From positions 1 to 62,712 of the forward strand of contig DASYHQ010000020.1 in assembly GCA_035998445.1 (NCBI GenBank): a DNA stretch of 62,712 nucleotides. Direction: 5' to 3'. The position numbers were made by a program, and so were the translations under genes. Shown here in pieces: positions 6,639 to 56,040 of the stretch. Source of the DNA: Tepidisphaeraceae bacterium. GTDB taxonomy: Bacteria > Planctomycetota > Phycisphaerae > Tepidisphaerales > Tepidisphaeraceae. The notes under the pieces were generated by a model that saw only the letters and a list, made by a program, of their open reading frames with translations, made no database searches and had not been told where the DNA came from. Position 1 is the stretch's first letter. Each line of letters starts with the position of its first letter.

Positions 6639-7280
6639 AGATCCGAACGCCGCTTGGTGCCTTGTTACACGCGGTTGAAGCCGCGCGGGTAGCCGTGGCC
6701 ATAGAAGCGCTTCGGGCTCACGGCGGAAGGGCTTCGACCGTTGGCTTGCGCTCGTTGACCACACCGGCCGCTCGCATCTTCGCGCGGGCGCCAACGCCGA
6801 TCATTCACAACTCACCTAGATGCGCGCCAGGCAGAGGTCCGATTGTCGCCTACGGGGTTGAGTTCCGGTGATGGCCAGGGTCATCGCGCCGGCGCGCACT
6901 CGCCGGTTCGGGGGTCGTTGCTCCCGATCAAAGCAACGGCATTTAGGTAAGCAGATGGGCGATCACCCGAGACGGATGCAGAGGGGCGCAGGTACGTCCT
7001 CGGGCTAATCAAATAAGGGTTCGGCACGAGCGGAACGCAGTGGAACGGATCCAGTACGGCCGTTAAGATGGCGGTCGCGAGGCCGCCGGCGTGCGTGGCC
7101 GGATCGCCGAGGCATCATCGCGTCCCTCCGCGACCACGGTCTCCGCGCGAAGGTGGTCCGCCTCCTGATCCCGCGGGTCGGGCGACGTTCTGGGGCGTGG
7201 AGCGCGTGTACGCTACGCGCGGGATGGCCTGCTCGGATTTGAGCACCCCTGCCCGCTCAATTCTGAGCACCGTATGCAGC

Positions 7281-7310
7281 TGTGCACGCACGCTTGTGCA
7301 TTCTTGCACA
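7281..7310. repeat. TGTGCA-N4-TGCACA palindrome plus an extra half-site
   Basis: A perfect copy at 7295-7310 (spacer TTCT), with an additional TGTGCA half-site at 7281-7286. It lies 168 bp from the 3' end of the primase-like gene. Confidence 0.7.
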
Positions 7311-7477
7311 CACCGTCACCCAGCCGTCGCCGTGCAAGCCGTTTGTTCTCACCTCAGTCGGCGGCGTCAGTCGAGCTGGATTCGTCGCCCGGCGACCTCG
7401 GTGTGCGTACAGTCTCCTTCTTTCTCGACCCAACCCCGTGGCTGGCGCGTAAGACGGTTGGACGTGAGATCGCACGT

Positions 7478-9541
7478 TCATCCGTTGGGCACTAATTCTA
7501 GTTTCAAGTGGCCGCTCGGTGGCTCCGGCCTGCCCAACGGCCACGGGTCCCCACCGTTCGTCCATGGGCCGGCGACGGTCTCGGGAGGCCGGCAGGTCGC
7601 TCCGGGACCCCATACAGTTTGTGAATAGAGAACGCTGTGGGCGGGAGCCACGGCTTCGCCCAAGGCCAGGGGCAGTTCGACGGCGCCGACCGCGTAACGG
7701 CGGCAATACCCCTCGCCCACTTTCGACCCGTCGTCCTCGAACGCACCGGAATTATAGGACCGGCTTGTGCACGTCATCGCGCCGAGGTGCATCAGCAGCC
7801 GGATCGCGTCGGCGACCGCGCGGCCGCTCGTCCGACACCTGAGCGACCGCAGCATGCCCCGGAAACCGGCCGTCGGTATCGGCGTCCCGGCGTGAATTTG
7901 GCGACCGCCGAACCCGGTAGCCTCCAGTGTGGCCGCCTGGGCCTGCTGACGCGCCCGCACGACCTCGGGGATGGCCCCCGACTGCCACAGGGCCTGGTTC
8001 TTCCGCGCGGTGAGGAACACGACCGCCGTCCCGCGGTACGTCGACGTCCCGAGGTCGGCGGGCCGCACCCCGCGCCCTTTCAACTGCTCGATTACTATCT
8101 TGATGTCCGCCTCCGTGAACCAAGTCGGTGCCCCCAAGCCGTTGGTCGCCTCCAGTTTAGCGCGGCGGACCGCCAGGTACCGTTGGACGTCGAACGCGAC
8201 GACGGCGGACGCTCCGTCGCGGAAGTTCAAGAACCTCACCTCTGCGCGGCGGCCCGCGTTGCGGAGCCGGGCGCGACGCTTGGCGTCACACGGTCGTCCC
8301 TCGCCAACGTGCTCGTCGTACAGCCGCTCGGCGAGTTCCTCGGCGTACCGGCCGCCGGTCGCCCGGAGGACGGCGAACACGATTCCGTTCGCCTGCTGGA
8401 CCTTGTCTCCACTGCGAACCATCTCGGCGATCCGCGGGGTGAAGACGCCGCTCGTCCCGCCCGCCGTTCCGCGACCGGTCCCGAACTCGTCCGCGTCGTC
8501 CAGGGCGGCGAGCCGCCGGATCTCTGCCATCCGTTCACCCCATGCCTGCTGGGACGTACTTCGGGCAGGCACGACGGCTCGGGACTGGCCGCCCGTCAGT
8601 AACTCGGTGAGGTCGCCTACCGTTAATGGAGCTGAGCGTTCAAACCAATCGGCGCACGCTCGGAGGCGGCCGCGTGCGACGGACGAGGGTTCGTCGGGTC
8701 GGTGGCAGCACGGGGCGAGCACCGTCGCGTGGTGGCCGACGCGTGGCGCCGTACGGCACTCGAGTCTTTCGCACCGGTGAAACCCTTCGTCGCCGTACCG
8801 GTGGGCGTAGACGTCATAGTGATTCGCGCGGGTGTCGACGTACGCGTGGTCATTGTCGGCCCGGTAGAGGTATGACAGTTCGGGCGGCACGCGGCGGCCG
8901 TCGGTCGGCCACGGCCGGGTCCGCACCCGTTCGGCGGCGTAGGCGGGGTCGTAAAGGGGGTTATCGACCGTCGCCTCGCGAACGCCAGCGAACGCCTCGA
9001 CGACCGGGCTGTCGCCGAATCCCTGTGTACACCTCGCCACGATGGACTCGCCGATCCCCCGGAGCCACGCCGCTCGCTCGGCGACGCGCAGGTGCGAGGC
9101 GTCGACCAAGAGGTACAAGCTGGCGCCTGTGCTACGCGACGGGCAGACGAACCCGCGCCCGCCGAGCACCTCGCGGTTGACGCGGTGGGCGTACGCGACC
9201 GCGCGGTCGGCGCTCGACGCACGTTTGTCGTCGACGTCGAGGCGGTGGAGCGTGACCGCCCCGCCGTCCCGGCTAACGAGGAGCAACACGCGTCGGCTGG
9301 TGGCGTGGGCCGCGAACGACTTGAACGTGAACGTCCGCGGGAAGCGGCGTCCGTCGCGGACTATGGGACGGGGGTCATCGTACGTGTTCTGCCGGTACGG
9401 GCCGTCGCCGGACGGGGTGGCCTGCCAGATGTCCTCGACGTCCACGATCGCGCGGAGCGCTTTCCACAGGCGACGGAGGTCACGCTGGGTGCCCGGGCCG
9501 AAGACGGGTTGGTCGAGGATCTCGGGAGGCTGCACGAACAC
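7478..9541 (-). CDS. Primase-like protein (divergent AEP motifs), element A
   Basis: 687 residues, paralogous to the 28.7-31.1 kb gene along most of its length. After an N-terminal helical segment (DLRRLWKALRAIVDV) come a strand with acidic pair LDVDDKR (D102, D104) and then PSRSTGASLYLLVD (residues 134-147). This order resembles motif I (DxD) and motif II (S-x-x-G-x-x-H) of archaeo-eukaryotic primases, with Ser141 where the histidine is expected. The middle contains C..C/H residues (FHRCERLECRT, APCCHRP) that could bind zinc. The C-terminal part is shared with B (STYRGTAVVFLTARKNQALW, TSRSYNSGAFEDDGSKVGEGYCRRY). The likely role is replication initiation or priming for the element. The start is GTG at 9541, with no clear ribosome-binding site. 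The family assignment is an inference. Confidence 0.6.
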   Translation of the reverse strand: MFVQPPEILDQPVFGPGTQRDLRRLWKALRAIVDVEDIWQATPSGDGPYRQNTYDDPRPIVRDGRRFPRTFTFKSFAAHATSRRVLLLVSRDGGAVTLHRLDVDDKRASSADRAVAYAHRVNREVLGGRGFVCPSRSTGASLYLLVDASHLRVAERAAWLRGIGESIVARCTQGFGDSPVVEAFAGVREATVDNPLYDPAYAAERVRTRPWPTDGRRVPPELSYLYRADNDHAYVDTRANHYDVYAHRYGDEGFHRCERLECRTAPRVGHHATVLAPCCHRPDEPSSVARGRLRACADWFERSAPLTVGDLTELLTGGQSRAVVPARSTSQQAWGERMAEIRRLAALDDADEFGTGRGTAGGTSGVFTPRIAEMVRSGDKVQQANGIVFAVLRATGGRYAEELAERLYDEHVGEGRPCDAKRRARLRNAGRRAEVRFLNFRDGASAVVAFDVQRYLAVRRAKLEATNGLGAPTWFTEADIKIVIEQLKGRGVRPADLGTSTYRGTAVVFLTARKNQALWQSGAIPEVVRARQQAQAATLEATGFGGRQIHAGTPIPTAGFRGMLRSLRCRTSGRAVADAIRLLMHLGAMTCTSRSYNSGAFEDDGSKVGEGYCRRYAVGAVELPLALGEAVAPAHSVLYSQTVWGPGATCRPPETVAGPWTNGGDPWPLGRPEPPSGHLKLELVPNG

Positions 9542-10237
9542 GTCACGAGACGGCCACCGTAACGGGCAGTGGCCGGCCGTTCCTGAAATTGCACGGTGGA
9601 CCCCATCGTCCGCAGTGCGGGCCTGCTCAGCACCGCAAGTTCACGAATCGCGGCGGCCGGTGACCAGTAGGACTTATCGGCGACCGCTGGTCGGTCGCTT
9701 TACCTGTTAAGCTGAGGGCTATGTGCCTGCCAGAGGCTCAAAGATGCGGCGGCCAGGGAAAACCGCTCCTCCCTTGCAGCGATTCGCCCGTCCTGAGTCA
9801 GGTACAAGGGCGGAACGCCGACAAATGAACTCCGTAACGGAAGAGCGCTAACGAAACGGTTCAGCTTGGAAAGTGGGATTTACTCTCACGTGAGATCGCG
9901 GACCATACGAAGCTCCCTCCGGAACGAGTTGACGAATGCGATCAAACGACCGACAGGCGGGCGCGTCGCGAAGGCTCGCGCCCACAACGGATGCCGATCG
10001 GATGGAAGTCGTTCCATCGCTAGACCTCGGTTCATACGCATCCGGACGACCTCCGCTGCTTCGGTCCTACGGCGTCAGGTCAGCCGACGACCAAGCGGGC
10101 GGTGGCATTAGCGCGTGCCATTCCTTTTTCACGTGCGCCGGGCTGTAGCCCCTTGGTCGTTTCTTCCGATACCAAGTACGCCAAGCGGGCGATTCATGTT
10201 GTATCCAGCCGCTAAATTCTGCAAATTGGAACTTCCC
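9542..10237. other. Gene-free 0.7 kb between primase gene and kinase locus
   Basis: No open frame here has a credible start site or composition. I see no strong hairpin or repeat. It must hold the promoter of the leftward primase gene and of the rightward small gene at 10238, but neither is obvious. Confidence 0.4.
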
Positions 10238-10483
10238 ATGCCTTCCATCCTGCCATCGCCTAACGTTTGGGATGAAGTTACCGGGGCAATAGCCATCGTT
10301 TCAAGCCTATCGCCCGTGCAGCGAGCCTACTGGTCAAGTCGGCTGACCGACCAACGCGAGCGGTTGACTGCGGCCCTAAAAGCGATGGATCCCACAGAGC
10401 GCGGCGCCGTCGAATACGTGCTCGACCAGCATCTTCACGCCGTAGTCAGCTCGTTCTTGCAAGCGGTGGCGGAGAAGCGGTAG
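10238..10483 (+). CDS. Small helical protein upstream of kinase-HD
   Basis: 81 residues (MPSILPSPNVWDEVTGAIAI...). The ATG at 10238 is chosen because the sequence upstream of it is compositionally unlike protein; an earlier in-frame ATG exists at 10196. The product is almost wholly helical, with amphipathic segments SPVQRAYWSSRLTDQRERL and ERGAVEYVLDQHLHAVVSSF. No motif is recognised. It ends 76 bp before the kinase-HD start, in the same direction, so the two may be functionally paired even though the kinase gene seems to have its own promoter. Gene reality is moderately supported. Confidence 0.5.
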   Translation: MPSILPSPNVWDEVTGAIAIVSSLSPVQRAYWSSRLTDQRERLTAALKAMDPTERGAVEYVLDQHLHAVVSSFLQAVAEKR

Positions 10484-10547
10484 AAAAACCGCGTTGGGGC
10501 GGCATATTTTGGCGAACGTCTCGGTCGTCCCCGCGCGCCGCGACTGC

Positions 10548-10560
10548 TAGAATTGTGGGA
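10548..10560 (+). promoter_or_regulatory. Extended -10 promoter, predicted leaderless start of kinase-HD
   Basis: TG-C-TAGAAT (TGn at 10545-10547, hexamer 10548-10553) ends exactly 6 nt before the ATG at 10560, which places the expected transcription start on the A of the start codon. No good -35 is visible, as is normal for extended -10 promoters, and no Shine-Dalgarno sequence fits. Confidence 0.6.
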
Positions 10561-12884
10561 TGGCTAAACGCCCCGCTCGCCGGCAAACTTCGACGCCTAC
10601 GCTTCCTCTTTCTGGGAGCTTCCCTCACTATCTCTCCGCGATCGCCAGGGATCTGAGTCGCCGCTACGCGTTCGGGGGTGAGGCCGGGCGAGGAAAGACG
10701 GGCGCGGCTTATAAAATCGTCGACGTGCACACGGATCGCCCTTTCTGCCTCAAAACTTGTTCGCCCGACGTGACGGACGCCGCCGGGCGGGAGCAAGTGC
10801 GTGAGACGCTCTCCACCGAAGTGAAAATCCTGCGGCCGTTGAGCCATCGCTGCCTGCCGGCCATTTACGATGCCCAACTCAAAGCCGAGTTGCCTTATTA
10901 CGTTTGCACGTACCACCCCGGCGTGACGTTCAAACGATTCAGGCTCGAAGGTCGGAAGCTTCCACTGCGTGAGTCGACGTCCGCGATCTGGTCGCTCTTG
11001 GACGTGATGAAGTACCTCCACAATCAGGATCGGCAGCACTGTGACCTTCATTCCGAGAACGTCATGATCAGCCCTGAGGTGTTCCGGGACGGCATTATGG
11101 TGATCGACTTCTCTTCCGGCCACCGCGGTAGTGACAGCTCGCCCGACACGTTCAACCGGGGTAATTTCGCATTCAAGCCAGTTTCCGACCAGCCGCAGGC
11201 GGGACGAAGGGTCACCCGCAAGGTGACGCAGTTCGAGCAGTACGATTTCGCGGGCCTCGGCATGCTGCTGGCTCAGATGAAGGACTCCTTCTTCGCCGGC
11301 GCATCGCGCCAATCTCAGTCCGCCTACGTCGACTTTTGCGGAGCCCTCCGAAATGGCGATATCAACACATGGGACGCAATTGAGGACCGCTTTCTGACGG
11401 TGCTAGACCCGTATCGTATATGGACGGGCAATGCCGATCTCTTTACCTCCGCCGACGGCGGTCCACAGGCAATTTCGCTGCCGGCCGGCGTCGGCGTGGC
11501 CGTGGGCGTGGCCCCGCTGGCCGTTGTAAACACGTCCGCGTTCCAGCGGCTTCGGGGTATTCGCCAACTGTCGTTTTGCGAGTGGTTCTTCCCGGGCGCG
11601 AGCCACACGCGGTTCGAACACTCCCTCGGTGTGTTCGGCCGGGCGAAGTCGGCAATCGAATCGCTCGTGCACGACCGCGCCTTCCGCGACCTGCGTAGCG
11701 TCGCCCAGATCCGCGGCTTTCTACTTGCAGCGCTCGTTCACGACGTCGGTCATTACCCGTTCGGCCACCTCGTGGAACAGTACGCGGCCAGCCGCCTGTG
11801 GAAGTCCGCCGCCGCGAAGGAGGCCGCGTCTCACAGCCGCCACTCGCTGTGGCTTATGGATAACGACGAGGAATTACGGACGGCAATCGACGAGCACTGG
11901 GGACCGGAAGCGAGACTGAACGCCCGGCGGACGTTGACCAAGCAGGTGCCCGTTCTTTCCGAACTCCTCGACGGCCCGATCGACATCGATAAGGTGGACT
12001 ATCTCGCCCGCGACGCGGTCCACTGCGGCGTGCCGTTCGGCGCCGGCCTCGACGTCTCCGGACTGCACCGCGCCCTACGCGTGGTCCACGGCGGCCACCG
12101 ACTCGGGATTGAGTCCGCTGGGGTGCCGGCGGCCGAGGGCCTAATGGTGTTGCAAGATCAGATGTTGTCGTCCGTTTACTGGCACCCCACGATCCGCGGC
12201 CTCATATGCATGTTTCATGGCGTGTTGGCCAATTTGGTTAGCAAGGACGAAGCGCTGTTCAACGGGCTGGTCGAGGAACTGAAGCGGTGTACGAGTGAGG
12301 ACGATGCGATCCGAAGCGTGTTACGCCCCCGTGTGGACATGCTGCCGAAAAAGAAACGCGAATCGGTCCAACGGCTCCTCAGCCCGCTGGTCCGCCTCAA
12401 ATTTTCGGATATCTACGTCCCAACTGTCACGTACGCGCCGACGGATCCCCCGCCGGAGCACCTGCCGTCGGACAACGCGTACCGGTCGATCGTCAAGGAT
12501 TTCACGCATACCGAGTCCACCGCTGCCGAGCCGGTTAACTGGCATAACGTACGTCGACTCCGCACGGCCTACATCGCCGCGCTGATCGAGATGGGCCAGC
12601 CCGCTGACGACCTCCACGTCGTCATCGACGTCCCGTATGGCAAGTCGTCGCGGCAGAACTTGATCGTGTACAGTGACCGGACCGGGGTCGAGAAAGACAT
12701 CACGGACATCTCCCATCTAAAGGAGACAATCTTCACCATGCCCGCGACGTTTCTCTCTCCCGTCCGCGTCTATCTCGCCCCGGAAATGCACGCCCCGGTG
12801 TCCGAGCGAATCTCTCGATTGCGCCAGCGCGCGGAGGAAATCTTCTACGAACGACGCCCGCTAAACGATCACGCCGACGAGTAG
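10560..12884 (+). CDS. Protein kinase-HD phosphohydrolase fusion protein
   Basis: 774 residues. Residues about 35-290 form a eukaryotic-like protein kinase: a Gly-rich region FGGEAGRGKTGAAYKI, the VAIK-type lysine in FCLKTC, the catalytic loop HCDLHSENVMI (Asp161 and Asn166 region) and a DFG-equivalent VIDFSSG (Asp183). Residues about 310-620 are an HD phosphohydrolase of the COG1078/SAMHD1-dGTPase type: FQRLRGIRQLSF, HTRFEHSLGVFG (His near 350), ALVHDVGHYPFGH (HD pair near 394) and DIDKVDYLARDAVHCG (Asp near 478). The last 150 residues are of unknown fold. Separate family knowledge says SAMHD1-like enzymes hydrolyse dNTPs and dGTPases can protect against phage. The fused kinase could sense infection or regulate the HD domain. 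It is cytoplasmic, cargo of element A, and absent from B. Confidence 0.88.
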   Translation: MAKRPARRQTSTPTLPLSGSFPHYLSAIARDLSRRYAFGGEAGRGKTGAAYKIVDVHTDRPFCLKTCSPDVTDAAGREQVRETLSTEVKILRPLSHRCLPAIYDAQLKAELPYYVCTYHPGVTFKRFRLEGRKLPLRESTSAIWSLLDVMKYLHNQDRQHCDLHSENVMISPEVFRDGIMVIDFSSGHRGSDSSPDTFNRGNFAFKPVSDQPQAGRRVTRKVTQFEQYDFAGLGMLLAQMKDSFFAGASRQSQSAYVDFCGALRNGDINTWDAIEDRFLTVLDPYRIWTGNADLFTSADGGPQAISLPAGVGVAVGVAPLAVVNTSAFQRLRGIRQLSFCEWFFPGASHTRFEHSLGVFGRAKSAIESLVHDRAFRDLRSVAQIRGFLLAALVHDVGHYPFGHLVEQYAASRLWKSAAAKEAASHSRHSLWLMDNDEELRTAIDEHWGPEARLNARRTLTKQVPVLSELLDGPIDIDKVDYLARDAVHCGVPFGAGLDVSGLHRALRVVHGGHRLGIESAGVPAAEGLMVLQDQMLSSVYWHPTIRGLICMFHGVLANLVSKDEALFNGLVEELKRCTSEDDAIRSVLRPRVDMLPKKKRESVQRLLSPLVRLKFSDIYVPTVTYAPTDPPPEHLPSDNAYRSIVKDFTHTESTAAEPVNWHNVRRLRTAYIAALIEMGQPADDLHVVIDVPYGKSSRQNLIVYSDRTGVEKDITDISHLKETIFTMPATFLSPVRVYLAPEMHAPVSERISRLRQRAEEIFYERRPLNDHADE

Positions 12885-13322
12885 CGTGTTGATGACGTGG
12901 TCGAGTGGCGCAGCCGGGGGACATGGACCGTCCATGACTACGGTCACGCCGCGAACGTGGTCGTCCGGGACCAATTCCCGGCCGGGCGAAACGTAAGCCT
13001 TAGCAAGGTTGACTCTTAGTTGTAGCAAGGCACCGGCAACGCTTAAGTGAAAACATGTAACGTACGTTCCCCGGCTCTACCCATCGTCACGCCATGACGG
13101 CCCTGCTAAATCGGTGCGCTATTCCTCGGCACGAACCGTCGAATTGGCGACGAGGTCGTGCCTTTCTGCCCGCACCCGTATCACGCCCCACGGACGTAAA
13201 AGATCCACGTCCATCGTGAGGTGCCCCTACCCCCACCTGCCCGAGTCCGTGCGAGATGTGCTGTGCGGTGCAACCTCAGGAATGCACCCCGCCCGTTGCC
13301 AGCGACAAAGGTCATCTAGAGA

Positions 13323-18011: not shown

Positions 18012-18496
18012 TGTCAGTCGCAGGCCCGGGTACGGCAAGGACGACATCACATCGGACGCTATTTTTCGCCGAGTACGCTGTCCCTACTACCGCCGCGCGG
18101 CCACGGTCTAGGACGGACGGTGGTAGCGGTCGCTCGGACCGAAGTCGCCAAACGTGCAAACGATTGGCGTTGCAGAGATCGAGAGCGGGACCGCAGGCGT
18201 CGACCGGTCGGCGCAGCGAATGTCCGGTACAAGGGCACCGGTCGACCTCGGGATGGAACGCGGAATAGTCCTGCCGCTGATGTCGTCGCAAGCCTGGAGA
18301 GACCGGATGGCACGATAGGTGTAACGCCCACATCGAGGAAGTGATCGAAGCATTCGGGGTGGCCCCAGCGGATGCAAGGACGAGCCGATAATTCGCCGGT
18401 GATCCGGTGGACGTCGGTTGCAAGATGGATATGGTATTCATGTGATCCGCCTAAAAGCTCTGCCGGCTCACAGTCGCGGCGGAGTTCTAGAATTTG

Positions 18497-19508: not shown

Positions 19509-19880
19509 TCACGGGGCGGTCCGGGCCCATGCCAGGTAAGCGTCGACCAACCGCGCGACGGTCATCTGCTCCGGTGAACGCTTGAGATCACCTGGCGTTC
19601 GCCCCGTCGCCAGCCACTGCAAGACGGTCCGATGATACTTTGTAAAACTGTCGGGCGAGTTAGCCCGCCCGAGGTAGACCATGCGACCGTCGAGGCGAAC
19701 GTACCCCAGTCGCTTCGCTTTGTGGACGCGATAGGCCGGAACGGTCGGGCCGGTGTCCGGTACATCGCCCGGGTGGCGCCGACTTCGAACGCGTACATCC
19801 AGCGTTTGCCACTTGGCCCCGTCAGCATCGTTTCCGTGCGAAACGGGCTCACCGCCCCAAGTCCGACTTTGTTGCAACAT
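19509..19880 (-). pseudogene. Truncated tyrosine recombinase, element A
   Basis: 123 residues matching only the N-terminal arm-binding part of the integrase at 51730-53097: VPAYRVHKAKRLGYVRLDGR, MVYLGRANSPDS and LVDAYLAWAR are shared nearly word for word. The core-binding and catalytic domains (R, H-x-x-R, Y) are absent because the frame stops at 19509 in unrelated sequence. The start ATG at 19880 follows GAGGTGAGCAG. It is the last gene of the RadA operon, 27 bp after the Gam-like gene. Loss of catalysis means A would need another integrase (for example from B) to move. Confidence 0.8.
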
Positions 19881-19907
19881 CTGCTCACCTCGAAAACGCA
19901 GGAACAA

Positions 19908-20537
19908 CTACTTGACGTACAACCGGTCCGCGGGGGAAACGACCGCGACGCCGTCGGGGACTTCACCGTGTTCCGAAAGGTGACGTCCGAGCGCGTCGCG
20001 GGACACCTGCGTGCGGACCCGCGCGTCCTCGGGCCGAGCACGTTGCCAGACCGCCAACGCCCGTGCCGCGTCGCCCTCGGCCTCGACCGTGACGCGGAGG
20101 GCCTCCGGGAGCGACCGCTCGCACCACCTGACGACGGACAGCTCGTCGACCACGTCGATCCGCCCGACCGAGCGGCGAAGGCCGACAGTCCCGGCCGGCA
20201 GGGGCACGGAACGGGCGCGCCCCCCCCGGCGCGCTAATTCCTGCCGGAGCCATCCCTCGAGCTCCGCCCCGAACCGTCGCAACAGCCATTGCTCGTCATG
20301 TTGCGCACGGCGCAGCTCCTGGTCGGCCGAGCCGCGCACCCGCTCCGCGTAAGACCTGCATTCGACGACCTTGCGAACGACCCACGAAGCAGTCCGCTCG
20401 TCGGTCACACGGAAGCCGTTTTCGATTTCGGCGGCGATGCCGCGGTCTTCCTGTGGTGCGTCGGCCATAGTGTCGTCGGGCGACGCAAGGTAGGTCTTAT
20501 TGTGGCGGCAGCTTGAGGTGGCTGTCTCCAATTTCAT
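19908..20537 (-). CDS. Mu Gam-like host-nuclease-inhibitor family protein, copy A
   Basis: 209 residues. An unstructured acidic N-terminus leads to a long helix (TASWVVRKVVECRSYAERVRG...ELRRAQHDEQWLLRRFGAEL). The beta-hairpin signature LPAGTVGLRRSVGRIDVVDE follows, then VRWCERSLPEALRV. This coiled-coil plus GT-x-x-x-R hairpin is the pattern of bacteriophage Mu Gam, which binds linear duplex ends and blocks exonucleases such as RecBCD. The ATG at 20537 overlaps the stop of the preceding gene (ATGA). The paralog in B is 247 residues. The role in the element would be protection of linear DNA ends during replication or integration. Confidence 0.72.
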   Translation of the reverse strand: MKLETATSSCRHNKTYLASPDDTMADAPQEDRGIAAEIENGFRVTDERTASWVVRKVVECRSYAERVRGSADQELRRAQHDEQWLLRRFGAELEGWLRQELARRGGRARSVPLPAGTVGLRRSVGRIDVVDELSVVRWCERSLPEALRVTVEAEGDAARALAVWQRARPEDARVRTQVSRDALGRHLSEHGEVPDGVAVVSPADRLYVK

Positions 20538-20800: not shown

Positions 20801-20865
20801 CCCGGCCGCCCCCTAAGGTCAAATCTACGCCTTCTCAACGTTGCGAGCGTTTGCACGCCACTCGC

Positions 20866-21237: not shown

Positions 21238-21306
21238 TTCGGGAGACTCCGTTCATAAAGTTTAAAGAAGGTTCACGGTTGCCGCGGACGGTGGTGACCA
21301 CCTAGG

Positions 21307-22632
21307 TCAGCTGGCAATAGAAAGTCGGTCGACGTCGAGGTCGGGCCAAGCCCGCCCTACCGCGGCCCGCAGGGCACTGACGCCGTACAAGTCACAGCCG
21401 CAGTTCCACGGGAGGAACCTGGCGTCGCCAGCCGGCAGCACCATCCGACGGCCGCGCAATTCGTTGGCGCGCATCGCGGCGTTCGCGGCGGAACAGAACG
21501 CGGTGGGGAGCGGCATGAGTTGGCCGGCGAGGTCGAGTTCTCCGACGACGATGAGGTCCGTCGGCAACTCTCTACACAGGCAAGCGCCCGCGATCGCCAA
21601 GGCGAGCGGCAGGTGGAGCAGGTCGGATCCCATCGTCGTAGAACCGGCATGCATGACGGTGGGCCGGCACAGGACCGAAAGGTCCAGATCGCGTAAAACG
21701 TCGTCCCACTCCAATGCAGTTGCTAGGCAACGCGCGGCGTGCCGGACCTCGTCCCGGGCAATGCCGCGGCACACGTTGACGCGCCCCACCTCCGCTGCCG
21801 GCGAATCGGACGGACGTGACGATAGCGTCGCGGCGGCCTGGACCTGGACGATGCCGTGACCCGGAAGCCACGCGTTCACCGACACGATTTGAGTCGCGGC
21901 GTGCCGTGCCCGATGGAGACGCGTCGTGACGGGATCGATCGTTAGCGGGACCCGACGAAGGACGGCGGGTCCGAACCGATTCTTCGGGACGGTCAGCGTC
22001 CGGCGCCCGCCGCGGCGGTCGAGGTGGACGACGACGTCCACGGCGTGTTCGAGCGTGCGCGGCCCCCGGGCGAGGTTTTGCTTGGTGACGTGGCCGACGA
22101 GGATCGTCGCGATGCCCGCCACCTGCAGGGACCTAGCCGCGTCGACCGCCGCCCGGCAGGCGGCCGCGTCGGTCCCCGCGGTCGCCCCGCCGCCCTGAAT
22201 GCTGTCGAGGACGACCAGCTTCACGTCGCGGTGCGGGGCATTCGCGCCGAGGACCAACCGCTGCACGGCGACGGTGAGATGCCGGGGTTCGAGCTCGATC
22301 GCCTCCATCGCGACCCGCTTTAAGGCGCGGTTGGCGTCTGCGTCACTGAAGCCGCCAGCCATGCGTCGAGCGCGCTCGCTTACGCGCTCGACCGACTCCT
22401 CGCTAAGTAGCAAAAGGGATTTGGATCCGCTGAGAGCTTGATCCAACGCCGACTGGAGCGCGAAGCCAGACTTCCGGCTGCCAGGTAGGCCAATGAGAAG
22501 CGAGATTCCCGCGGAATTGGATTGTCTGTACACGTTCGCGGTCGCGTACAGGGTGGGACTAAGCGACCAGCATTGCCTGGGCCCAGAGTCGAACTGGTCG
22601 GATCGGTTGTCACGCAGGAATCTCTTGGCCAT
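21307..22632 (-). CDS. RadA/Sms-like ATPase without zinc finger, copy A
   Basis: 441 residues. The RecA-type core has a Walker A variant GLPGSRKSG (near residue 50), a Walker B region VKLVVLDSIQ, GHVTKQNLARGPRTLEHAVD and the RadA hallmark KNRFGP. The C-terminal 140 residues match the Lon-like domain of RadA (LPLALAIAGACLCRELPTDL then GELDLAGQLMPLP). Known RadA proteins start with a four-cysteine zinc finger; none is present. Chromosomal RadA is a branch-migration helicase loaded on recombination intermediates, so an element-encoded form could drive recombination-dependent replication. It heads the operon iv-v-Gam-integrase. The start codon lies at the predicted transcription start. Confidence 0.85.
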   Translation of the reverse strand: MAKRFLRDNRSDQFDSGPRQCWSLSPTLYATANVYRQSNSAGISLLIGLPGSRKSGFALQSALDQALSGSKSLLLLSEESVERVSERARRMAGGFSDADANRALKRVAMEAIELEPRHLTVAVQRLVLGANAPHRDVKLVVLDSIQGGGATAGTDAAACRAAVDAARSLQVAGIATILVGHVTKQNLARGPRTLEHAVDVVVHLDRRGGRRTLTVPKNRFGPAVLRRVPLTIDPVTTRLHRARHAATQIVSVNAWLPGHGIVQVQAAATLSSRPSDSPAAEVGRVNVCRGIARDEVRHAARCLATALEWDDVLRDLDLSVLCRPTVMHAGSTTMGSDLLHLPLALAIAGACLCRELPTDLIVVGELDLAGQLMPLPTAFCSAANAAMRANELRGRRMVLPAGDARFLPWNCGCDLYGVSALRAAVGRAWPDLDVDRLSIAS

Positions 22633-27935: not shown

Positions 27936-28382
27936 GGGCGACAGGGGCAAGATCACCTGCGCAGTCCTGTACAGGCTCGACCGGTGCGAACGCGCCCCGT
28001 GCGAGGAGGCGCAGGGCCGTTAGTAGCGCTCTGGGGCTCCCGCTCGGACGACCGGCTGGGGGCGGCCCTCCGATGCCCGATCACGCCGGCCTCCGCTGCG
28101 CTCGCTCCCGTCAGGTCCGACGTGGGCCTTCCACGCGTCGCGGGGTGCGCCGTATGATCTGGCGAGGTGCGGCGCGTGAAGCAAGACCGAGGGCCGCCGG
28201 CCCGCCCGCGGGCGTACCGCTCGCGCCGTCCCCGTCGGATCTTTTGCCCGACCACCGTCTCCCATCGAACGGGGTCGCACCGCCCCACCCCCACACCCCC
28301 TACGACCAGCAAACGGTTTACGGACAAAAAGTTACTGCGATCCTGCGCGCGCCGCCACGCTCACGGTGAGCCGCCCAATCAG

Positions 28383-28687: not shown

Positions 28688-31078
28688 TCACGTCATCGCA
28701 AACATCGGTCTCTCGTCACCCCGGCGGGCGTCGCCTGGCGGGTCGAGGCCGTCCGGCAACCCTGTTTCGTCGATGGCGGGCACCGCCAGCAACGTCGAAG
28801 GCATCGACGGCCCACCACCCAGCAGGGCCTCGGACTCTATACGGGATTGTGAGAGGAGGACGGGGGAACCACTGCACATGGCCACCGCATCGCCGCAGCC
28901 CAGCAGGTCGGTGCCGCCCAGGCGGTATCGGCGGCAGTACCCCTCGCCCAGCTTAGAGCCGTCCGCCTCGTCGAACGCGCCGGAGTGGTAGGCCCGGCTC
29001 GTGCAGATCAACGCGCCGACGCGCACGAGCAGGTCGATCGCGTCGCCGACCGCCCGCCCGCTCGTGCGACGGCGCCAGTGCCGCAGCATCCCGCCGAACG
29101 CCCGCGCCGGCATCGGTACCCCCTCGCGGACCTGCGCTCCGCCGAACCCGTGCTCGCGCAGGGCCACCGCCTGCGCCACCTGGCGGTCAACGACCGCAGC
29201 CGGCACCGCGCCCCTCTCCCACAGCCGCTGGTTCTTTGCCGCCGTCAGGTAGCAGATCGCCACGCCCGCATAGGTGCTCGTGCCCAGGTCCGCTGATCCG
29301 ACCCCCAGCCTCTTCAGGCCATTAATCACGGCCGCAACGTGCGCGTCGCTGAAGTGCTCGATCGCCGTCGCGCGGGCCACCACCCCCTCCGTCTGGGTCG
29401 CCGCTGCCCGATGTCGCTCGAACGCGTCGACGATCGCCTCGGCTCCACGGTGGCCCAGCGCGATGCTGCCACGGCGACGACCGTCAGCGCCCCCGGGGTC
29501 GACGTACCGCTTGGCCCCCCATCGCAACGCGTGGCGCAGCCGCGTGCGCCGCGCCGCGTCGCAGGGCCGCCCCGCGGCGACGTGTTGGTCGTAGTACCGA
29601 TGGGCCAAGTCCTCGTCCATCCGGCCCCCCGTCGTGCGCAGAGTCAAGAACGCGACCGCGTCCGTCTGTTGCAGCTTGTCATGGCTGCGCAGCATCCGCC
29701 ACAAGCGCGGCGTCAGCAGCGGCCGGCCTCCGCCCCGTCCGCTCGCGTCCCGTTGGGCGGCCTGGGCTTCCTCGTAATCGTCCTCGTCGCCCATGGCCAG
29801 CAGCTGCCTGATCCGCTCGTCCTGCTGGCGGGCCGCCTCCCGGGCCTGAGCCGACGAACGCTGTGACAGTCGGTCGATGGTTGGACGGACCGACCGTTCC
29901 GGCAAACGCTCGCCCATCAGCCTGGCCAGGTCGTTGGGCACGAGGGGGACGGAGCGTTCGAGCCAGCCGGCACAGCGTCGTACCGCGTCGTGCTGCGACC
30001 GCAGCACCGCCGCCTCGCCATCACCCGTGCAGCCCCCGTCCCCAACGCCACCGCTCCCGTGCGCCGGGCGGACGCAGGGGATCAGGATCGTCGAGTGCGC
30101 GTCGAACCGCGGCTCGGTGCGCGGCTCCAGGGCCTCGCACCGGTGGAACAGCCGTCCCTCATAGTGGGTCGTATAAAAGGCGTACGCGTCGGCCCGCGGC
30201 TGAAGGTACGCATGCTCGTCGCCTCGTCGGTACAGGTATGCCGCCTGCGGACGCGGCTGACTGCCATCGACCGGCCAGGGACGGGTCAGGACGTGCTCGG
30301 CGGCCAACGAGGGGTCGAAGCGCGGGTTATCGACGGTGGGGTGGCGGCCGCCCTTGACCGCCTCCACCCGCTCACCGTTTGGCCCGGGCCAGCAGTGGCC
30401 GACGAGTGCGGCGCCAAGGTCGCGGACCCAGGCGGCCCGCCCTTCGAGCGGCACCGTCGTGAGGTCGATCAGCAGATAGATGCTCGCCCCGTTGCGGCGC
30501 GACGGACCGACGAGCCCCCGGCCGCCGAAGTGCGTTAGATTGACCGTGCGCGCATAGGCGACCGCGGCGTCGCTGGGGCGCCCGTCACGGGCAGGGTTCG
30601 TCCCGTCGTCGGGACGCTTGTGGTCGACGTCGACGCGCAACAGCACCCGTGCCGCGCCATCCCGGTTCACCGCGAGCATCGCCCGCCGGCCCATCACGTG
30701 ATCGGCGAACGCCCGCAGCGTCAGCGTCCGCCGGCGGCGCAGCCCGTTCTTGAGCTGGATCGGGTACGGGTTGGCTCTGGGGTTCTGGCGGAACGGGCCG
30801 CGGCCCCACGCATCGGTCCGCCACACGTCGACGCGGTCGACGAGGGGACACAGCAGCTTCCAGAGGCGTTTGAGCTCGGCGCGGAACGTGGGGTCGAGCG
30901 CATCGAGGGCGTCGGGGCCGGGGACGGGGAGGATGGCCGGGAGACTCACGGGGGAACAACTCGGCGCAGCACTGGGACCGGCGAGGGCGTCGACGATCAT
31001 TGCCGCCGCTGCGTCGGCCGCAGGTGGACGCACGGGCCACGTCGCGGGTGCCGCCCCGCTCGCGCACGCGGCGAGCAT
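28688..31078 (-). CDS. Primase-like protein (divergent AEP motifs), element B
   Basis: 796 residues from the ATG at 31078; an ATG at 31000 is an alternative, and alignment with copy A begins only near LKRLWKLLCPLVDRVDVW. Shared motifs in order are a strand LLRVDVDHKRP (acidic pair DxD), VGPSRRNGASIYLLIDL, EHVLTRPWPVDGS, SYLYR/AAYLYRRGDEHAYL, a Cys/His region (LFHRCEALEPRTEP), ERSVPLV.NDL..L, and a long C-terminal part with GTSTYAGVAICYLTAAKNQR and TSRAYHSGAF...DGSKLGEGYCRRYRLG. The DxD strand followed by S-R-x-x-G-A-S-x-Y resembles AEP motifs I and II, with serine in place of the usual histidine. The C-terminus is longer than in A. The role is presumably element replication. Confidence 0.6.
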   Translation of the reverse strand: MLAACASGAAPATWPVRPPAADAAAAMIVDALAGPSAAPSCSPVSLPAILPVPGPDALDALDPTFRAELKRLWKLLCPLVDRVDVWRTDAWGRGPFRQNPRANPYPIQLKNGLRRRRTLTLRAFADHVMGRRAMLAVNRDGAARVLLRVDVDHKRPDDGTNPARDGRPSDAAVAYARTVNLTHFGGRGLVGPSRRNGASIYLLIDLTTVPLEGRAAWVRDLGAALVGHCWPGPNGERVEAVKGGRHPTVDNPRFDPSLAAEHVLTRPWPVDGSQPRPQAAYLYRRGDEHAYLQPRADAYAFYTTHYEGRLFHRCEALEPRTEPRFDAHSTILIPCVRPAHGSGGVGDGGCTGDGEAAVLRSQHDAVRRCAGWLERSVPLVPNDLARLMGERLPERSVRPTIDRLSQRSSAQAREAARQQDERIRQLLAMGDEDDYEEAQAAQRDASGRGGGRPLLTPRLWRMLRSHDKLQQTDAVAFLTLRTTGGRMDEDLAHRYYDQHVAAGRPCDAARRTRLRHALRWGAKRYVDPGGADGRRRGSIALGHRGAEAIVDAFERHRAAATQTEGVVARATAIEHFSDAHVAAVINGLKRLGVGSADLGTSTYAGVAICYLTAAKNQRLWERGAVPAAVVDRQVAQAVALREHGFGGAQVREGVPMPARAFGGMLRHWRRRTSGRAVGDAIDLLVRVGALICTSRAYHSGAFDEADGSKLGEGYCRRYRLGGTDLLGCGDAVAMCSGSPVLLSQSRIESEALLGGGPSMPSTLLAVPAIDETGLPDGLDPPGDARRGDERPMFAMT

Positions 31079-31838: not shown

Positions 31839-33488
31839 GTGGAGCCTGAGGTCGAACAGTTTCTGCGGCATGCTTTCGAACAGGCTGGCTCGAGCAGCTT
31901 TTCTTTTTCCAGCGTGGCGGGCCGGGGCGACGGCCTATGGGAAGCGGCAATCGCGGCCCGTCACGGAATGCTCGCCTTTGACGATACCGAGCGCGGCCAT
32001 CTCACAAACCGCGGGATGGAGTTCGCAACGTCGAAGCTGCTCGCTCGGGGGGCGGAACCGGGCGCGCAACCCGCCGCGACCATTACTGCGCCCGGAACCA
32101 CTCAGACGTACAGCGAGACGTTCGGCATCGGGGGTCGGCTCGGGCCGCCGGCCCCGCGTAAGCTGTTCAGCAATGAGTTTTTCGCGCTCGCCGCCTTTGC
32201 CGCCCATGGCGAGGACTGTCGCGTGGAGCTAGAGGACATCTCACTACTTACCGGCATCGAAGGGTGGCGCGTGCTCCACGCAGTGAAGGACCTCGAATCG
32301 CACGCTGAGATCGACGGCATGGAGGTGCCGGGCACCGGGCGATTGACGGACGGGGGATGGGCGTTGGCTCGTCGACTGGAGGCCGAGCGGCCGCAGTTTG
32401 CGACGCTCCGCCGCGAGATGTCCCGGCGCGTCGCGCAATCATGCGAAATCAGGTCCGGCCTCAATGACCCGGCGGCCCTGGGCGACGACGAGCGCGCGTT
32501 CCTCGCCGCGATCGCCGCCGATAATTTGCTGGCGTACGAGCCGTGGCAATCGATTGCCTCACGTGCTGGGCTGGCAGGCGACGCCCAGCGGGCGAAGGCC
32601 GCCTACCGCGGGCTCGTCGAACGGGACCTGCTTTCGGCCGACATAGGAGACCCGGACCGGCTGCGGACGACCCTGCCAGGCGCGGACCTCGCCCGGAGGT
32701 TGGCGGCCGCTGCCAAAATGGGGTCACCCGCCGCTGATCCTGATCCTCAGGCGGCGCGCGAGACGTTCTTCGAGCGGTTCAAGCGGGCCACGGATCACGA
32801 GGTGATCGGCGGGCTCACCGCCGATGCAATCAAATGGTCCGTGGTGTTCGTCATCAGCCTGCTGATGATCGGCGCGGTTGCTCTAGGGTATGTCCGCCGC
32901 GACTCGAAGTTCGTGCGTCTGGTCACGGCGCAGTTCGCTGATTCGTCTGTCGTTGAGGCGGGCATGGCCGATACCCCCGCGCCGTCCGCCGCACCTGCCG
33001 TGCTACCCGACTCGGCGACGCTCCATGTTACGGGGCCGCAACCAAGTGGCACCACCCCACTGGCTCAGCAAAGCACTGCCCCCGCCTCGGTTCCGGCCAC
33101 AGTACTGACCGAGCCGCCCGCCGCCATAACTCCCGGCGCTCTGCTCCTGGAGATTGAGGTGGGACCGGGACCTCAGCACGGACAGGAATCCAGGGCGACT
33201 GACAACTTTTCCGTCCGCGCTCCTGCCGGCGCCGTCAAGATGTTTTGGACGGTGACCGGTGGCGGTGACGCCTCGACGGTCCGGTTCAATCTCACCGAGG
33301 ACGTGCTGTCCGAGGACGGCCCTCGGACGCTTCGGCTCCAAGACCTCCGCGATATTGGCCGCGACCAGACGGTGTTACCCGCGCTGCGCCACGGTGCAGT
33401 CACCGACCTAGCTACCGGTGACCGGCTGTACATCAGCGGCGTTTCTGGCGCGACGAGCCGATTTACTATCCGCGTCTACGCTCACTGA
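31839..33488 (+). CDS. Membrane protein with possible winged-helix regions and a C-terminal beta domain
   Basis: 549 residues from GTG 31839. The N-terminal half contains two or three repeats with winged-helix-like pattern: EQFLRHAFEQAGSSSF..., SNEFFALAAFAAHGEDCRVE then LEDISLLTGIEGWRVLHAVK, and DDERAFLAAIAADNLLAYEP then WQSIASRAGLAGDAQRAKAA. A single membrane helix (AIKWSVVFVISLLMIGAVAL, about 333-352) leads to a Pro/Ala/Ser/Thr-rich linker and a C-terminal beta-rich domain of about 115 residues (GALLLEIEVGPGP...FTIRVYAH). The orientation suggests cytoplasmic helical modules and a periplasm-side beta domain. No family is recognised. It is element B cargo in the place where A has kinase-HD. 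Confidence 0.75.
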   Translation: MEPEVEQFLRHAFEQAGSSSFSFSSVAGRGDGLWEAAIAARHGMLAFDDTERGHLTNRGMEFATSKLLARGAEPGAQPAATITAPGTTQTYSETFGIGGRLGPPAPRKLFSNEFFALAAFAAHGEDCRVELEDISLLTGIEGWRVLHAVKDLESHAEIDGMEVPGTGRLTDGGWALARRLEAERPQFATLRREMSRRVAQSCEIRSGLNDPAALGDDERAFLAAIAADNLLAYEPWQSIASRAGLAGDAQRAKAAYRGLVERDLLSADIGDPDRLRTTLPGADLARRLAAAAKMGSPAADPDPQAARETFFERFKRATDHEVIGGLTADAIKWSVVFVISLLMIGAVALGYVRRDSKFVRLVTAQFADSSVVEAGMADTPAPSAAPAVLPDSATLHVTGPQPSGTTPLAQQSTAPASVPATVLTEPPAAITPGALLLEIEVGPGPQHGQESRATDNFSVRAPAGAVKMFWTVTGGGDASTVRFNLTEDVLSEDGPRTLRLQDLRDIGRDQTVLPALRHGAVTDLATGDRLYISGVSGATSRFTIRVYAH

Positions 33489-33757: not shown

Positions 33758-33907
33758 GCGACCACTGTCCTGAGGCGGAGGGGGTCGCAATTCACAATCC
33801 GTGCGAATCGAGGCGAGGCAAACGCTTCACGACAAGTCATCTATGCCGCCTTTGTAAGTGGGACTCGGGTGGGGATCCCTGACCAGGACCCTGTACGGTA
33901 CATGGGG
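33758..33907 (+). repeat. Diverged direct repeat R2, left copy
   Basis: It aligns with 36641-36794 in the same orientation: GCGACCAC.GTC, GGGTCGC.AT.CAC, CCGTGCGA, TATGCC.C.TT, GGACC..GTACGGTACATGGG. It ends in a TGTAC-G-GTACA palindrome (33892-33902). The rest of 33489-34371 has no gene; an AT-rich stretch near 34128-34165 may hold the promoter of XI. Confidence 0.65.
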
Positions 33908-51553: not shown

Positions 51554-51733
51554 TTAGGCGACCGATAGGAGGTCGCGGGTGGCTTCGGTGTTCATGAACT
51601 GCGCGATCGCGTGGCCGCGGATCTGCGATGACCTGCTGTCGGAGTGGCCGAGCCGGCGAGCGGCTTCCGCGGCGGACGTGCCTTCCAGGTAGATCATCAC
51701 CGACCTATGGCGCCGGCGGTTGCCGCCCATCAT
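51554..51733 (-). CDS. 59-residue ORF coupled to the integrase
   Basis: Starts MMGGNRRRHRSVMIYLEGTS and contains AAEAARRLGHSDSRSSQIRG. Its ATG (51733) overlaps the integrase stop (51730-51732), implying coupled translation. The AARRLGHSD string looks like a helix-turn-helix or the region before the catalytic tyrosine of XerC/D-like enzymes. A small DNA-binding excision factor is possible. There is no counterpart left in element A. Confidence 0.5.
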   Translation of the reverse strand: MMGGNRRRHRSVMIYLEGTSAAEAARRLGHSDSRSSQIRGHAIAQFMNTEATRDLLSVA

Positions 51734-53097
51734 CCAAGTTCGGCCGCGATGGCCCGCGCCGTAGCCACGTCCGCCTCGGCGTAGTCCAGCGTCTGGTCGA
51801 CCGTCCGGTGGCCCAGCAGGACCCGCGCCGCCTCCAGCCCCTTTTCCCGGCGGATCGCCGTCGCGTGTAGGTGCCGCAGTTGGTGCGGGTGCCAGTACTG
51901 CGCGACGGCGAGCGTGCCCGCCACAGTTGCTGCTCGCATCGCGTAACGCAGCGCCCGATGATAGCTCCGCGAGTTATAGCGACCGCTGCCCGCTGGCGAC
52001 CCGGCCCGACGGGTTGGGCAGGTCTTCGGATGCCCGCACTCGCCATCGCTCGCAGACTTGTCGCTCAGCCGCCGCTCGGCCATCGCTTGTGCTGGTGAGA
52101 ACACCCACGCCTGCGGGTCGTGGGGCCGCAGGAACGGGCCGAGGACAGCCCGGCCCCGCGGGCCGATACACACGACGCGGCGTTGCCCGCGGTACGCCGT
52201 CTTGTGCGTCGCAGGGGCGTAAAGCCACACCGCCGCCGCAGCTCCGCCGCCGCGATCGACGTCGGCCGTTCGCAGGGCGCACAACTCGCCCGACCGCATC
52301 CCGGTCAGCCGCTGCAGCCGGACCATCGCCCGCAGCGTCGGCGGCAGGTACGGCAGGACCGCCTCGACGTGTGCGTCGGGGACCGGCCTCACCGGCGCCG
52401 TCTCCCGCGCGCCCGAGCGGCCGCGCCGCAGCGGCTCGACCGCCGCCAGGGCCGTCAGCACGCTCGGCGCGACGAGCTGCTCCGACACCGCCCAGCGGAA
52501 AGCCCGCTTAACGCAGGCGACCCGCTGGTTCACGACGTTGCGGCACAGGTCGTCGGCAACCAGCGCAGCACGCACCGCGCGTAGGGCAAGCGGGCCGAAC
52601 GCCGCCGCCGCCGTCTGCCCGTATAGCGCGCACAGCGCCTTCGCACCGGCCTCCAGCGGTCCCAGCCCCGCGCTCGCCCGCCCCGTCGCCGCGTCGACGT
52701 AGTACGTGCGGGCCCACCGCAGGTACGCCGCCGCAAGCGACGCCACCGTGAACACATCCCCTGCGGCAGAAGCCCGTGATGACTGGGGCAGTTGGCCGGT
52801 GGCGAGCCACTCGCCGAGCGTGCAGCGATATCGCTCGTGGCTCACGGGCGAGTTGGCTCGCCCGAGATAGACCATGCGCCCCGCCAGCCGCACGTACCCG
52901 AGGTTCTTCGCCCGGTGCACGCGGTAGGCCGGGACAGATGCCGAGGTGGCACGTGCTCGAACGCGCCCCTCTGCCGATCGGCGGACCGGTATCGCATCGT
53001 CGTTTCGGAACGCCCGGTGGGTCGCGGGAGTACCGCTCGCCACATCGGAACCCGGGGGGACGGCGGACGGCAAAGGTGGGTGCGGCTGGGCGAACAT
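51730..53097 (-). CDS. Tyrosine recombinase (integrase), element B
   Basis: 455 residues. The ATG at 53097 is preceded by GGAGGACGAGACG. The N-terminal arm-binding part (YRVHRAKNLGYVRLAGRMVY) is shared with the fragment in A. It is followed by a SAM-like core-binding domain (FGPLALRAVRAALVADDLCR). The catalytic domain has R in LTGMRSGELCALR (near 266), K in the beta-hairpin (THKTAY), HQLRHLHAT (H-x-x-R, near 404), LLGHRTV (second H, near 430) and Tyr in TLDYAE (near 439). All catalytic residues are present. The last 200 residues include an unusual insert with CGHPKTC. It is the terminal gene of the RadA operon and presumably integrates element B. Confidence 0.93.
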   Translation of the reverse strand: MFAQPHPPLPSAVPPGSDVASGTPATHRAFRNDDAIPVRRSAEGRVRARATSASVPAYRVHRAKNLGYVRLAGRMVYLGRANSPVSHERYRCTLGEWLATGQLPQSSRASAAGDVFTVASLAAAYLRWARTYYVDAATGRASAGLGPLEAGAKALCALYGQTAAAAFGPLALRAVRAALVADDLCRNVVNQRVACVKRAFRWAVSEQLVAPSVLTALAAVEPLRRGRSGARETAPVRPVPDAHVEAVLPYLPPTLRAMVRLQRLTGMRSGELCALRTADVDRGGGAAAAVWLYAPATHKTAYRGQRRVVCIGPRGRAVLGPFLRPHDPQAWVFSPAQAMAERRLSDKSASDGECGHPKTCPTRRAGSPAGSGRYNSRSYHRALRYAMRAATVAGTLAVAQYWHPHQLRHLHATAIRREKGLEAARVLLGHRTVDQTLDYAEADVATARAIAAELG

Positions 53098-54696: not shown

Positions 54697-56040
54697 CTAC
54701 GTGCCGATCAGCAGTGCTATCCCGGCCGCGTCGAGGTCGGGCCACACCCACGCCACCGCGTCGGCGACGGTTTCGACGCCGCTCAGCTCGCAGCCGCAGT
54801 TCCACGGCAGGAACCGCCGATCGTCCGCCGGCACTAGCAGCCGCATGGCGGCCAGCTCACCCGCCCGCATCGCCGCCGTCGCCGCGGTGATCGCCGCGCC
54901 TGGCAACGACCGCACGCGCCCCGCGAGGTCGACCTCACCGATCGCGACCAGGTCGCTCGGCACCGTGCGGCACAGGGTCGCCGCGGCGATCGACAGGCAC
55001 AGCGGCACGTGCAAGAGGCTCGCGTATCCGCCTGAAGACGATCGAGCGCCAAGCAACGGATCGTCGCGATCGCTCAAGGGCCTGCACGCGATCGACAAAT
55101 CCAGCTCGCCGGCGACCGCCGCCATGCCCGGGAGGCTGCCGAGGCAGTGCAGCGCGTACTGCACCTCGGCGCGGGCAATCCCACGGCAGGCGAGCAGGCG
55201 GCCGGCGGCACGCCCCGACGGCGGGGCGAGCGCCGCGGCAGTTTGGACCTCGACGCCGCCGACGTGCGGCAGCCACGCGCGGGCAGTGGCCACGTGGCGT
55301 CCCGCAGCCCCGCCGGCGGGCCGCGCCGGCATCAGGCGCGTCGTCGCCGGGTCGATCGCCAGCGGGACCGGTTGGAGGACGGCCGGGCCGAAGCGGTTCT
55401 TGCTGACGGTGAGCGTGCGCCGCCCGCCGCGGCGGTTCAGGTGCAGGACGACGTCGACCGCGTGCTCGAGCGTCCGCGGGCCGCGGATCGCGTTCTGCTT
55501 CGTCACGTGGCCGACCAGGAGCGTGGCGATGCCGGCGGACTGAAGAAGCCGCGCGGCGTCCAAGGCCGCCCGGCAGGCCCGCGCGTCGGACCCGCCCGCG
55601 CCGGTCGTGCCCTGGATGCTGTCAAGCACGACAAACTTGACTCCAGCGTGCGCGGCATCGGTGGCGACCACGTGCCGCGCGACGTACGTCGGCAGGTGGG
55701 CCGGATCATTAGGCGTCGCGAGCAGTGCGAGGTTTTTGAGGCAGCGTGCCACGTCCACCTTCGTACGGCCCGTCATCATGCGCTCGGCACGCGCGCGGAC
55801 GCGAGAAACGTGCTCTTCGCTCAGCAGGATTAGGGACTTTTCATCGCGAGCCGCAAGGTCCAAGGCGGTTTGCAGGGCCAGGCCGGTCTTGCGGCTGCCG
55901 GGTGGTCCGACGAGTAGTGAGATGCCAACGCATCTCCCAGACGAATGGTGAGGCCACGCCAATGGAAACTGAGCATTAATTCCGACGCTTAGCGTCGAAT
56001 CGGAGCGGGCTGGAAAAGTCGAAATCGAATGAGCAACCAT
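54697..56040 (-). CDS. RadA/Sms-like ATPase without zinc finger, copy B
   Basis: 447 residues. Walker A variant GPPGSRKTG, Walker B VKFVVLDSIQG, GHVTKQNAIRGPRTLEHAVD, the hallmark KNRFGP, and a RadA/Lon-like C-terminal domain (VPLCLSIAAATLCRTVPSDL, GEVDLAGRVRSLPG). No N-terminal zinc finger is present, as in A. The serine-arginine in place of the usual glycine-rich loop residues (GSRK) is shared between copies and may mark this subfamily. It heads the operon ending in the integrase, with the start codon at the predicted transcription start. Confidence 0.85.
   Translation of the reverse strand: MVAHSISTFPARSDSTLSVGINAQFPLAWPHHSSGRCVGISLLVGPPGSRKTGLALQTALDLAARDEKSLILLSEEHVSRVRARAERMMTGRTKVDVARCLKNLALLATPNDPAHLPTYVARHVVATDAAHAGVKFVVLDSIQGTTGAGGSDARACRAALDAARLLQSAGIATLLVGHVTKQNAIRGPRTLEHAVDVVLHLNRRGGRRTLTVSKNRFGPAVLQPVPLAIDPATTRLMPARPAGGAAGRHVATARAWLPHVGGVEVQTAAALAPPSGRAAGRLLACRGIARAEVQYALHCLGSLPGMAAVAGELDLSIACRPLSDRDDPLLGARSSSGGYASLLHVPLCLSIAAATLCRTVPSDLVAIGEVDLAGRVRSLPGAAITAATAAMRAGELAAMRLLVPADDRRFLPWNCGCELSGVETVADAVAWVWPDLDAAGIALLIGT

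Follow-up and report, generated by a model that had tools for sequence, protein, structure and literature searches.

The motif II histidine of AEPs

AEP-type (primase-polymerase) proteins carry a histidine in motif II as a rule, and the initial annotation of the locus described here took this residue to be canonical. The rule is not universal, however. One study reports AEP families with Gln, Gln/His, His/Gln/Tyr or Arg/Lys at this place, and PolpTN2, which has a Gln there, makes primers, its motif IV arginine being essential (PMC5862659). Some SF2_hel AEPs of mriyaviruses have Ala or Arg for the histidine, and the authors still suggest activity (PMC10962738). For human PrimPol, a third source describes His169 as essential for both primase and polymerase activity, the H169A, H169Y and H169N variants being inactive (PMC10778844).

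Exceptions also occur in genomes related to the host of this locus. Among their PF09250 Prim-Pols, 27 of 29 keep the motif II histidine and two (L032 and L039) have Gln (30 loci, less the partial L056); among their PF22548 AEPs, one of ten is without it (13 matches, less the partial L089, L093, and L094). The latter, L096, is a TOTE-type AEP from the same genome as the present locus (contig C35, 8958-9428) and has an Arg at the histidine place (SNGDGGYRLW). No report of a serine at this place was found in the literature consulted on such replacements, which does not prove its absence from print.

Two diverged genes with a serine in motif II

The window, meaning the whole stretch of 62,712 nucleotides analyzed here, contains two AEP-like genes. 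Protein A (7478..9541, minus strand; GTG start) has 687 aa, and protein B (28688..31078, minus strand) has 796 aa. The codon use of A is of the coding type (GC1/2/3 = 0.70/0.55/0.83), and B is its sole further copy in its own 5.84-Mb genome (search at E up to 10). The two proteins are 44% identical over 700 columns (BLASTP), with conservation in residues 370-620 of A about equal to that of the core. Their genes have diverged to an NG86 dN of 0.50 and a dS of 1.09, the latter near saturation, and by codon position they are 66% identical at second and 46% at third positions. The third positions are thus the more altered ones, and with this dN and dS both A and B appear to be under constraint.

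The DxD strand and the following PSRSTGASLYLLVD, on which the initial annotation was built, are present in the open reading frame 7478-9541. Motif I, hhhDhD/E in AEPs, reads LDVDD in A and VDVDH in B. In A, D102 and D104 are the two acids of the strand RLDVDDK (residues 100-106), of which LDVDDK (residues 101-106; 9224..9241, minus strand) is the motif; the aligned columns of B hold VDVDHK (residues 149-154; 30617..30634, minus strand). Motif II corresponds to PSRSTGASLYLLVD in A (residues 134-147; 9101..9142, minus strand) and, in the aligned columns of B, to PSRRNGASIYLLID (residues 192-205; 30464..30505, minus strand). The sxH of AEP motif II is absent from both: B has a Ser at the histidine place, and A has Ser141 or Leu142, a choice that hinges on a one-residue gap, as profile alignment gives Ser141 and the ungapped pairwise alignment of L095 with A gives Leu142. 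Neither protein has a His at motif II, the only histidines conserved between them being those at 79, 232, 255, 271, and 411. That the serine is common to both copies and is not an error, as had been claimed, is borne out, because A and B retain the two Asp residues and the Ser despite their divergence.

Upstream of motif I, residues 72-79 of A (9305..9328, minus strand) form a T-x6-H stretch whose spacing equals that of T2...H9 of the TOTE-type AEPs in the alignment. Downstream of motif II, the proposed motif III (hD/E) is VVEAFAG (residues 180-186; 8984..9004, minus strand), in which E182 is conserved as E239 of B. A profile of six TOTE-type AEPs sets this candidate opposite PEAFPK, as does the pairwise alignment of A with L095, for which 57 of 500 shuffles were as good. 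R188, which follows E182, is conserved in A and B, but the sequences could not be aligned to motif IV so as to place the arginine of that motif. Five His and Cys residues common to A and B (H255, C257, H271, C278, and C296, within residues 255-296 of A; 8654..8779, minus strand) make a possible zinc site.

Possible consequences for catalysis

The chances seem even that A and B are paralogous AEP-type replication proteins on integrated mobile DNA that keep the core acids and hold the nucleotide without the histidine. Residues ~60-215 of A would then be an AEP-like core with D102, D104, and probably E182 as its metal-binding acids, and the incoming nucleotide would be held by Ser141 together with conserved basic residues (e.g., K106, R107, R129, R136, and R188) instead of by His. 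Plasmid Rep proteins are laid out as an AEP, a helical part and a DNA-binding part. Like those of plasmid Rep primases, the middle and C-terminal parts of A (370-620) may serve in oligomerization and in the recognition of DNA or of an origin.

The serine had been offered initially as the mark of either a new primase subfamily or a non-catalytic initiator. Taken alone it shows neither, since other AEPs are also without the histidine (PMC5862659; PMC10962738); given these known replacements, it is compatible with catalysis either kept or lost. It looks like a change of an already known kind, with a residue not encountered in the literature consulted. An active and an inactive state of A and B are about equally likely.

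An active primase with an altered nucleotide pocket, in which Ser141 and conserved Arg/Lys residues would stand in for the histidine and which would form a new AEP subfamily, is a possible reading that falls short of an even chance. It agrees with the conservation of the acids in A and B and with the existence of other AEP families without the histidine, one of them proven active (PMC5862659), whereas no conserved motif IV arginine can be placed in A or B and a serine at this place was not encountered in the reports consulted. The other possibility, about as likely, is an AEP-fold initiator that keeps the fold and the acids and binds DNA or a partner without synthesizing primers. The inactivity of the human PrimPol variants H169A, H169Y, and H169N (PMC10778844) points in this direction, as does EAFAG in A, where the Lys of the TOTE-type FPK stretch is not conserved. 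On the other hand, A and B, at 44% identity, both retain E182 and the Asp pair of motif I, and PolpTN2 makes primers with a Gln at this place and an essential motif IV arginine (PMC5862659).

A probable relationship to AEPs, by profile and predicted structure

A relationship of A and B to AEPs is likely, at the limit of detection. Neither protein gave a useful match in Pfam, PHROGs, NCBIfam, PADLOC, or the PDB sequences (hmmscan and PDB sequence comparison). Neither matched PF22548 AEP-TOTE (threshold E of 1 for the whole proteins and of 10 for the domains), and with PF09250 Prim-Pol both stayed below the Pfam cut-off. In hmmsearch with four AEP profiles, A did not rise above shuffles and B did so once only (E 0.21); pairwise scores of A with single AEPs were ordinary.

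More was obtained by hhalign of an A+B profile (A residues 50-240) against seven targets (plan, plantote, PF09250, TOTE, p4, p6, and p10), with AEP profiles built from genomes related to the host and with shuffle counts uncorrected for the number of targets. The p6 profile comprises six TOTE-type AEPs (L095-L099 and the viral-contig locus L102, with L100 and L101, TOTE proper, left out). Against it, the alignment runs over 159 columns (E 0.0067, nominal probability 5.7%) and brings the T-x6-H stretch and motifs I, II, and III into register, placing Ser141 at the His and E182 opposite the Glu of PEAFPK; none of 150 column shuffles was as good. With five AEPs in the profile, the alignment covers motifs I and II in 85 columns and is equaled by 1 of 100 shuffles, and the PF09250 profile, which no shuffle of 150 equaled, has motif I in register and motif II out. 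The remaining profiles do less well: p4, of four sequences, fails (42/150 shuffles as good), p10 is out of register, plantote is out of register with top scores near those of the best shuffles (0/100 as good), and TOTE likewise scores near the best shuffles (2/100 as good). AEP families are hard to connect by hhalign even to each other, PF09250 reaching only 19% with TOTE and 67% with plan.

Structure prediction was made with a two-sequence input. AlphaFold gave a mean pLDDT of 34.9 for full-length A and of 43.6 (pTM 0.44) for a 206-residue model of residues 45-250, in which blocks across model residues 51-130 reach a pLDDT of 57-71. The order of elements in this low-confidence model is beta-beta(motif I)-alpha-beta-beta(motif II)-alpha, and the full-length model has the same elements minus one strand. 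As modeled, this order fits that of the AEP core. Generic ferredoxin-like folds lead the fold matches, ahead of any AEP; because the model is of low confidence, this order is not counted against an AEP. In VIA-align, the AEP Prim-PolC (5op0) gives a Z of 5.5 over 94 residues, which is the longest alignment shown and not the top Z.

The description of A as AEP-like with a serine at the histidine place is the best reading, with moderate support. It is favored by the three motifs aligned with p6 and by the predicted strand order, and is weakened by the profiles that fail or fall out of register (p4 altogether, PF09250 at motif II), by the low model confidence, and by the generic top matches. Neither of the outcomes that the initial annotation had named as contrary to it appeared, that is, a motif II histidine elsewhere or a clearly unrelated fold. 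It is rather unlikely that A and B are not AEPs at all and that an unrelated ferredoxin-like domain has acquired the DxD and S-x-x-G-x-S by chance. The lack of a family match, the lead of unrelated ferredoxin-like folds in the fold search and the failure of several AEP profiles all speak for such a coincidence; it would, however, have to account for one profile that sets three motifs and the upstream T...H in register, for the AEP strand order in the domain-only model, low in confidence as that is, and for the replication-type genes nearby.

A family nearly restricted to two copies

The A/B family is very rare and almost restricted to its two copies. No relatives were found in GTDB contigs, viral contigs, public plasmids, or public phages, and among 26 genomes of the family only the host's own contains them. 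Besides that genome, searches with the A+B profile in 392 genomes of the phylum and with B in 397 genomes of the class returned weak rows only. Seven of these weak rows (L004, L005, L008, L010, L012, L018, and L022) were opened and judged unrelated by eye, a rejection that covers these seven alone. Nucleotide patterns written for conserved A/B words each hit the viral contigs once, by chance (L103 and L104).

A 61-residue stretch in another genome of the family (L011/L057; G023:C385:10920-11135) resembles the N-terminal part of B, with no shuffle of 2000 doing as well against B and one of 2000 against A, and is likely, from its sequence, a broken relative. It lies in a short broken frame (L057, 10773-11225), and the contig also bears a PF09250 Prim-Pol. 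Free alignment of the next frame, which contains 'EPSRRAEGAYG', does not reach motif II, and when it is placed there the alignment is weak (194 of 5000 shuffles as good for A, 3748 of 5000 for B); for these two reasons, the Tyr that it would put at the motif II place is not relied on.

Mobile arrays and their 27-bp sites

The window contains two related arrays, and A and B each lie at one array end. Sulfatase and DUF7453/PEP-CTERM genes suggest that the host is a planctomycete. Besides A/B, the arrays share the pairs 15200/34096, 16778/35133, and 20866/54222, as well as a small protein (22718/56138). A 428-aa protein (13414-14700 and 38507-39919), 71% identical between its copies, is among the best conserved of the array pairs and occurs in one of the 397 class genomes searched, its own. 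Array 2 also holds the M and S genes of a type I restriction-modification system (47594-51018), and a full R gene was not found among the genes scanned.

A module of an integrase, a Gam-like protein, a small protein, a RadA/Sms-like ATPase, and a divergent 94-aa protein is present in three copies in the genome, each with different cargo: at 19512-23002 (with an integrase fragment only) and 51730-56422 of the window, and at 13490-17906 of L109, which is a third array on contig C8. In the window, the tyrosine recombinase (integrase) is encoded at 51730..53097 (minus strand), with the second-copy fragment at 19512-19907; the Mu Gam-like protein at 19908..20537 (minus strand) and 53138-54349; and the RadA/Sms-like ATPase at 21307..22632 (copy 1, in which AAA_25 and ChlI-like parts are recognized) and 54697..56040 (copy 2), both on the minus strand. 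The C8 array has no A/B gene, so the AEP-like gene is present in two of the three arrays found and is not required by every array of this kind. A small protein of array 2 (43441-44271) and one of the C8 array (L109 2447-3283) are 37% identical, and each lies just inside a 27-bp site.

These sites, common to the arrays, are imperfect palindromes of the form GACCMCCTTC-N7-GACSGTGGTC (10+7+10, with a variable center). They divide the arrays into units: A lies with a kinase-HD gene in unit 7132-12962, and B with gene 31839 in unit 28250-33786. The A unit has its left site at 7132..7158 and its right site, with 2 mismatches, at 12936..12962; the B unit has its sites at 28250..28276 and 33760..33786, all four on the minus strand. 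Further sites lie at 18099-18125, 23147-23173, 27053-27079, 36645-36671, 43295-43321, and 56554-56580 of the window and, in the C8 array, at L109 2314-2340 and 18039-18065. The rightmost site of each array has the other orientation. At up to 3 mismatches, the window holds 10 distinct places in 13 rows (3 places match both strands), against 0.05 rows expected and none of 100 shuffles reaching 13, a count that is circular for nine sites (seven found by BLAST and two by a fuzzy scan), as the pattern was composed from them, the rest being new. In the whole genome there are 20 distinct places (25 rows), against 4 rows for a backward control pattern; at up to 2 mismatches there are 12 places, 9 of them within the window or the C8 array. 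Inspection by eye gave no evidence of a target-site duplication at these sites. Their 10+7+10 layout is that of a tyrosine-recombinase core site, and they are possibly the core sites of the array's own tyrosine recombinase in an integron- or pdif-like cassette system.

The divergent neighbor of A in its unit (10560..12884, plus strand) is a Ser/Thr kinase fused to an HD phosphohydrolase-like domain, and the kinase part matches the PD-T4-6 and mad6 defense kinase models. The divergent neighbor of B (31839..33488, plus strand) is a protein of 549 aa for which no useful family match was obtained. It is unlikely that A and B are cargo, for instance half of a defense pair with the kinase-HD or the 31839 gene, and not replication genes of the element: each unit does hold one different divergent gene, the kinase does match PD-T4-6/mad6-type models, and the reading is retained because an A/B gene is missing from the C8 array, although its integrase module is the same, but the partner genes are unlike each other while A and B are conserved, and no defense model matches A or B.

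Our best guess is that A and B are Rep-type replication proteins of their units. They may be used when the excised element replicates, together with the RadA-like ATPase or a host helicase; no helicase domain was found in A or B by hmmscan. A search for iterons or origin repeats beside A and B turned up short repeats in two copies and loose inverted repeats, and nothing further. A far-reaching version, which we regard as improbable, would make A and B a new AEP subfamily with a Ser in motif II and the Rep of ~5.5-kb units that are bounded by the 27-bp sites, excised as circles by the array's tyrosine recombinase, and self-replicating, so that the whole would be an integron-like array with cassette-borne replication starters.

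Comparison with known AEP systems

Activity in A or B would offer a natural experiment on the extent to which an AEP can remodel its site for the incoming nucleotide, a point of interest because human PrimPol loses activity when the same residue is changed (PMC10778844). Inactivity would instead exemplify the conversion of an AEP into an initiator. Either way, a very rare replication-type gene lies in a mobile array together with directly testable sites and an integrase.

Among described systems, the mriyavirus SF2_hel AEPs share with A and B the replacement of the motif II histidine, by Ala or Arg, but are viral helicase fusions (PMC10962738), whereas A and B are without a detected helicase domain. 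The PrimPol-PV1 supergroup, PolpTN2, and RepB' are, like A and B, AEPs of mobile elements, and several of them lack the motif II histidine and keep the acids; they have Gln, Tyr or His there and a conserved motif IV arginine (PMC5862659), unlike A and B, which have Ser and in which that arginine is not placed with confidence. With the Prim-Pols (PF09250) of related genomes, A and B have in common motif I, the overall size, and the arrangement of an AEP part at the N terminus ahead of a long C-terminal part; they differ in giving no model match, in a motif II that is out of register in the profile comparison, and in lacking the histidine, which 27 of the 29 Prim-Pols keep and two replace by Gln. 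The TOTE-type AEPs (PF22548; L096 and L095) differ from A and B, which do not reach the PF22548 model, have a loop that is one residue shorter, lack the conserved FPK, and replace the His by Ser, where L096 has Arg. At the same time, over 159 aligned columns, they share with A and B the order of T-x6-H and the DxD of motif I, the small-residue loop and strand of motif II, and the E-x-F that follows the helix.
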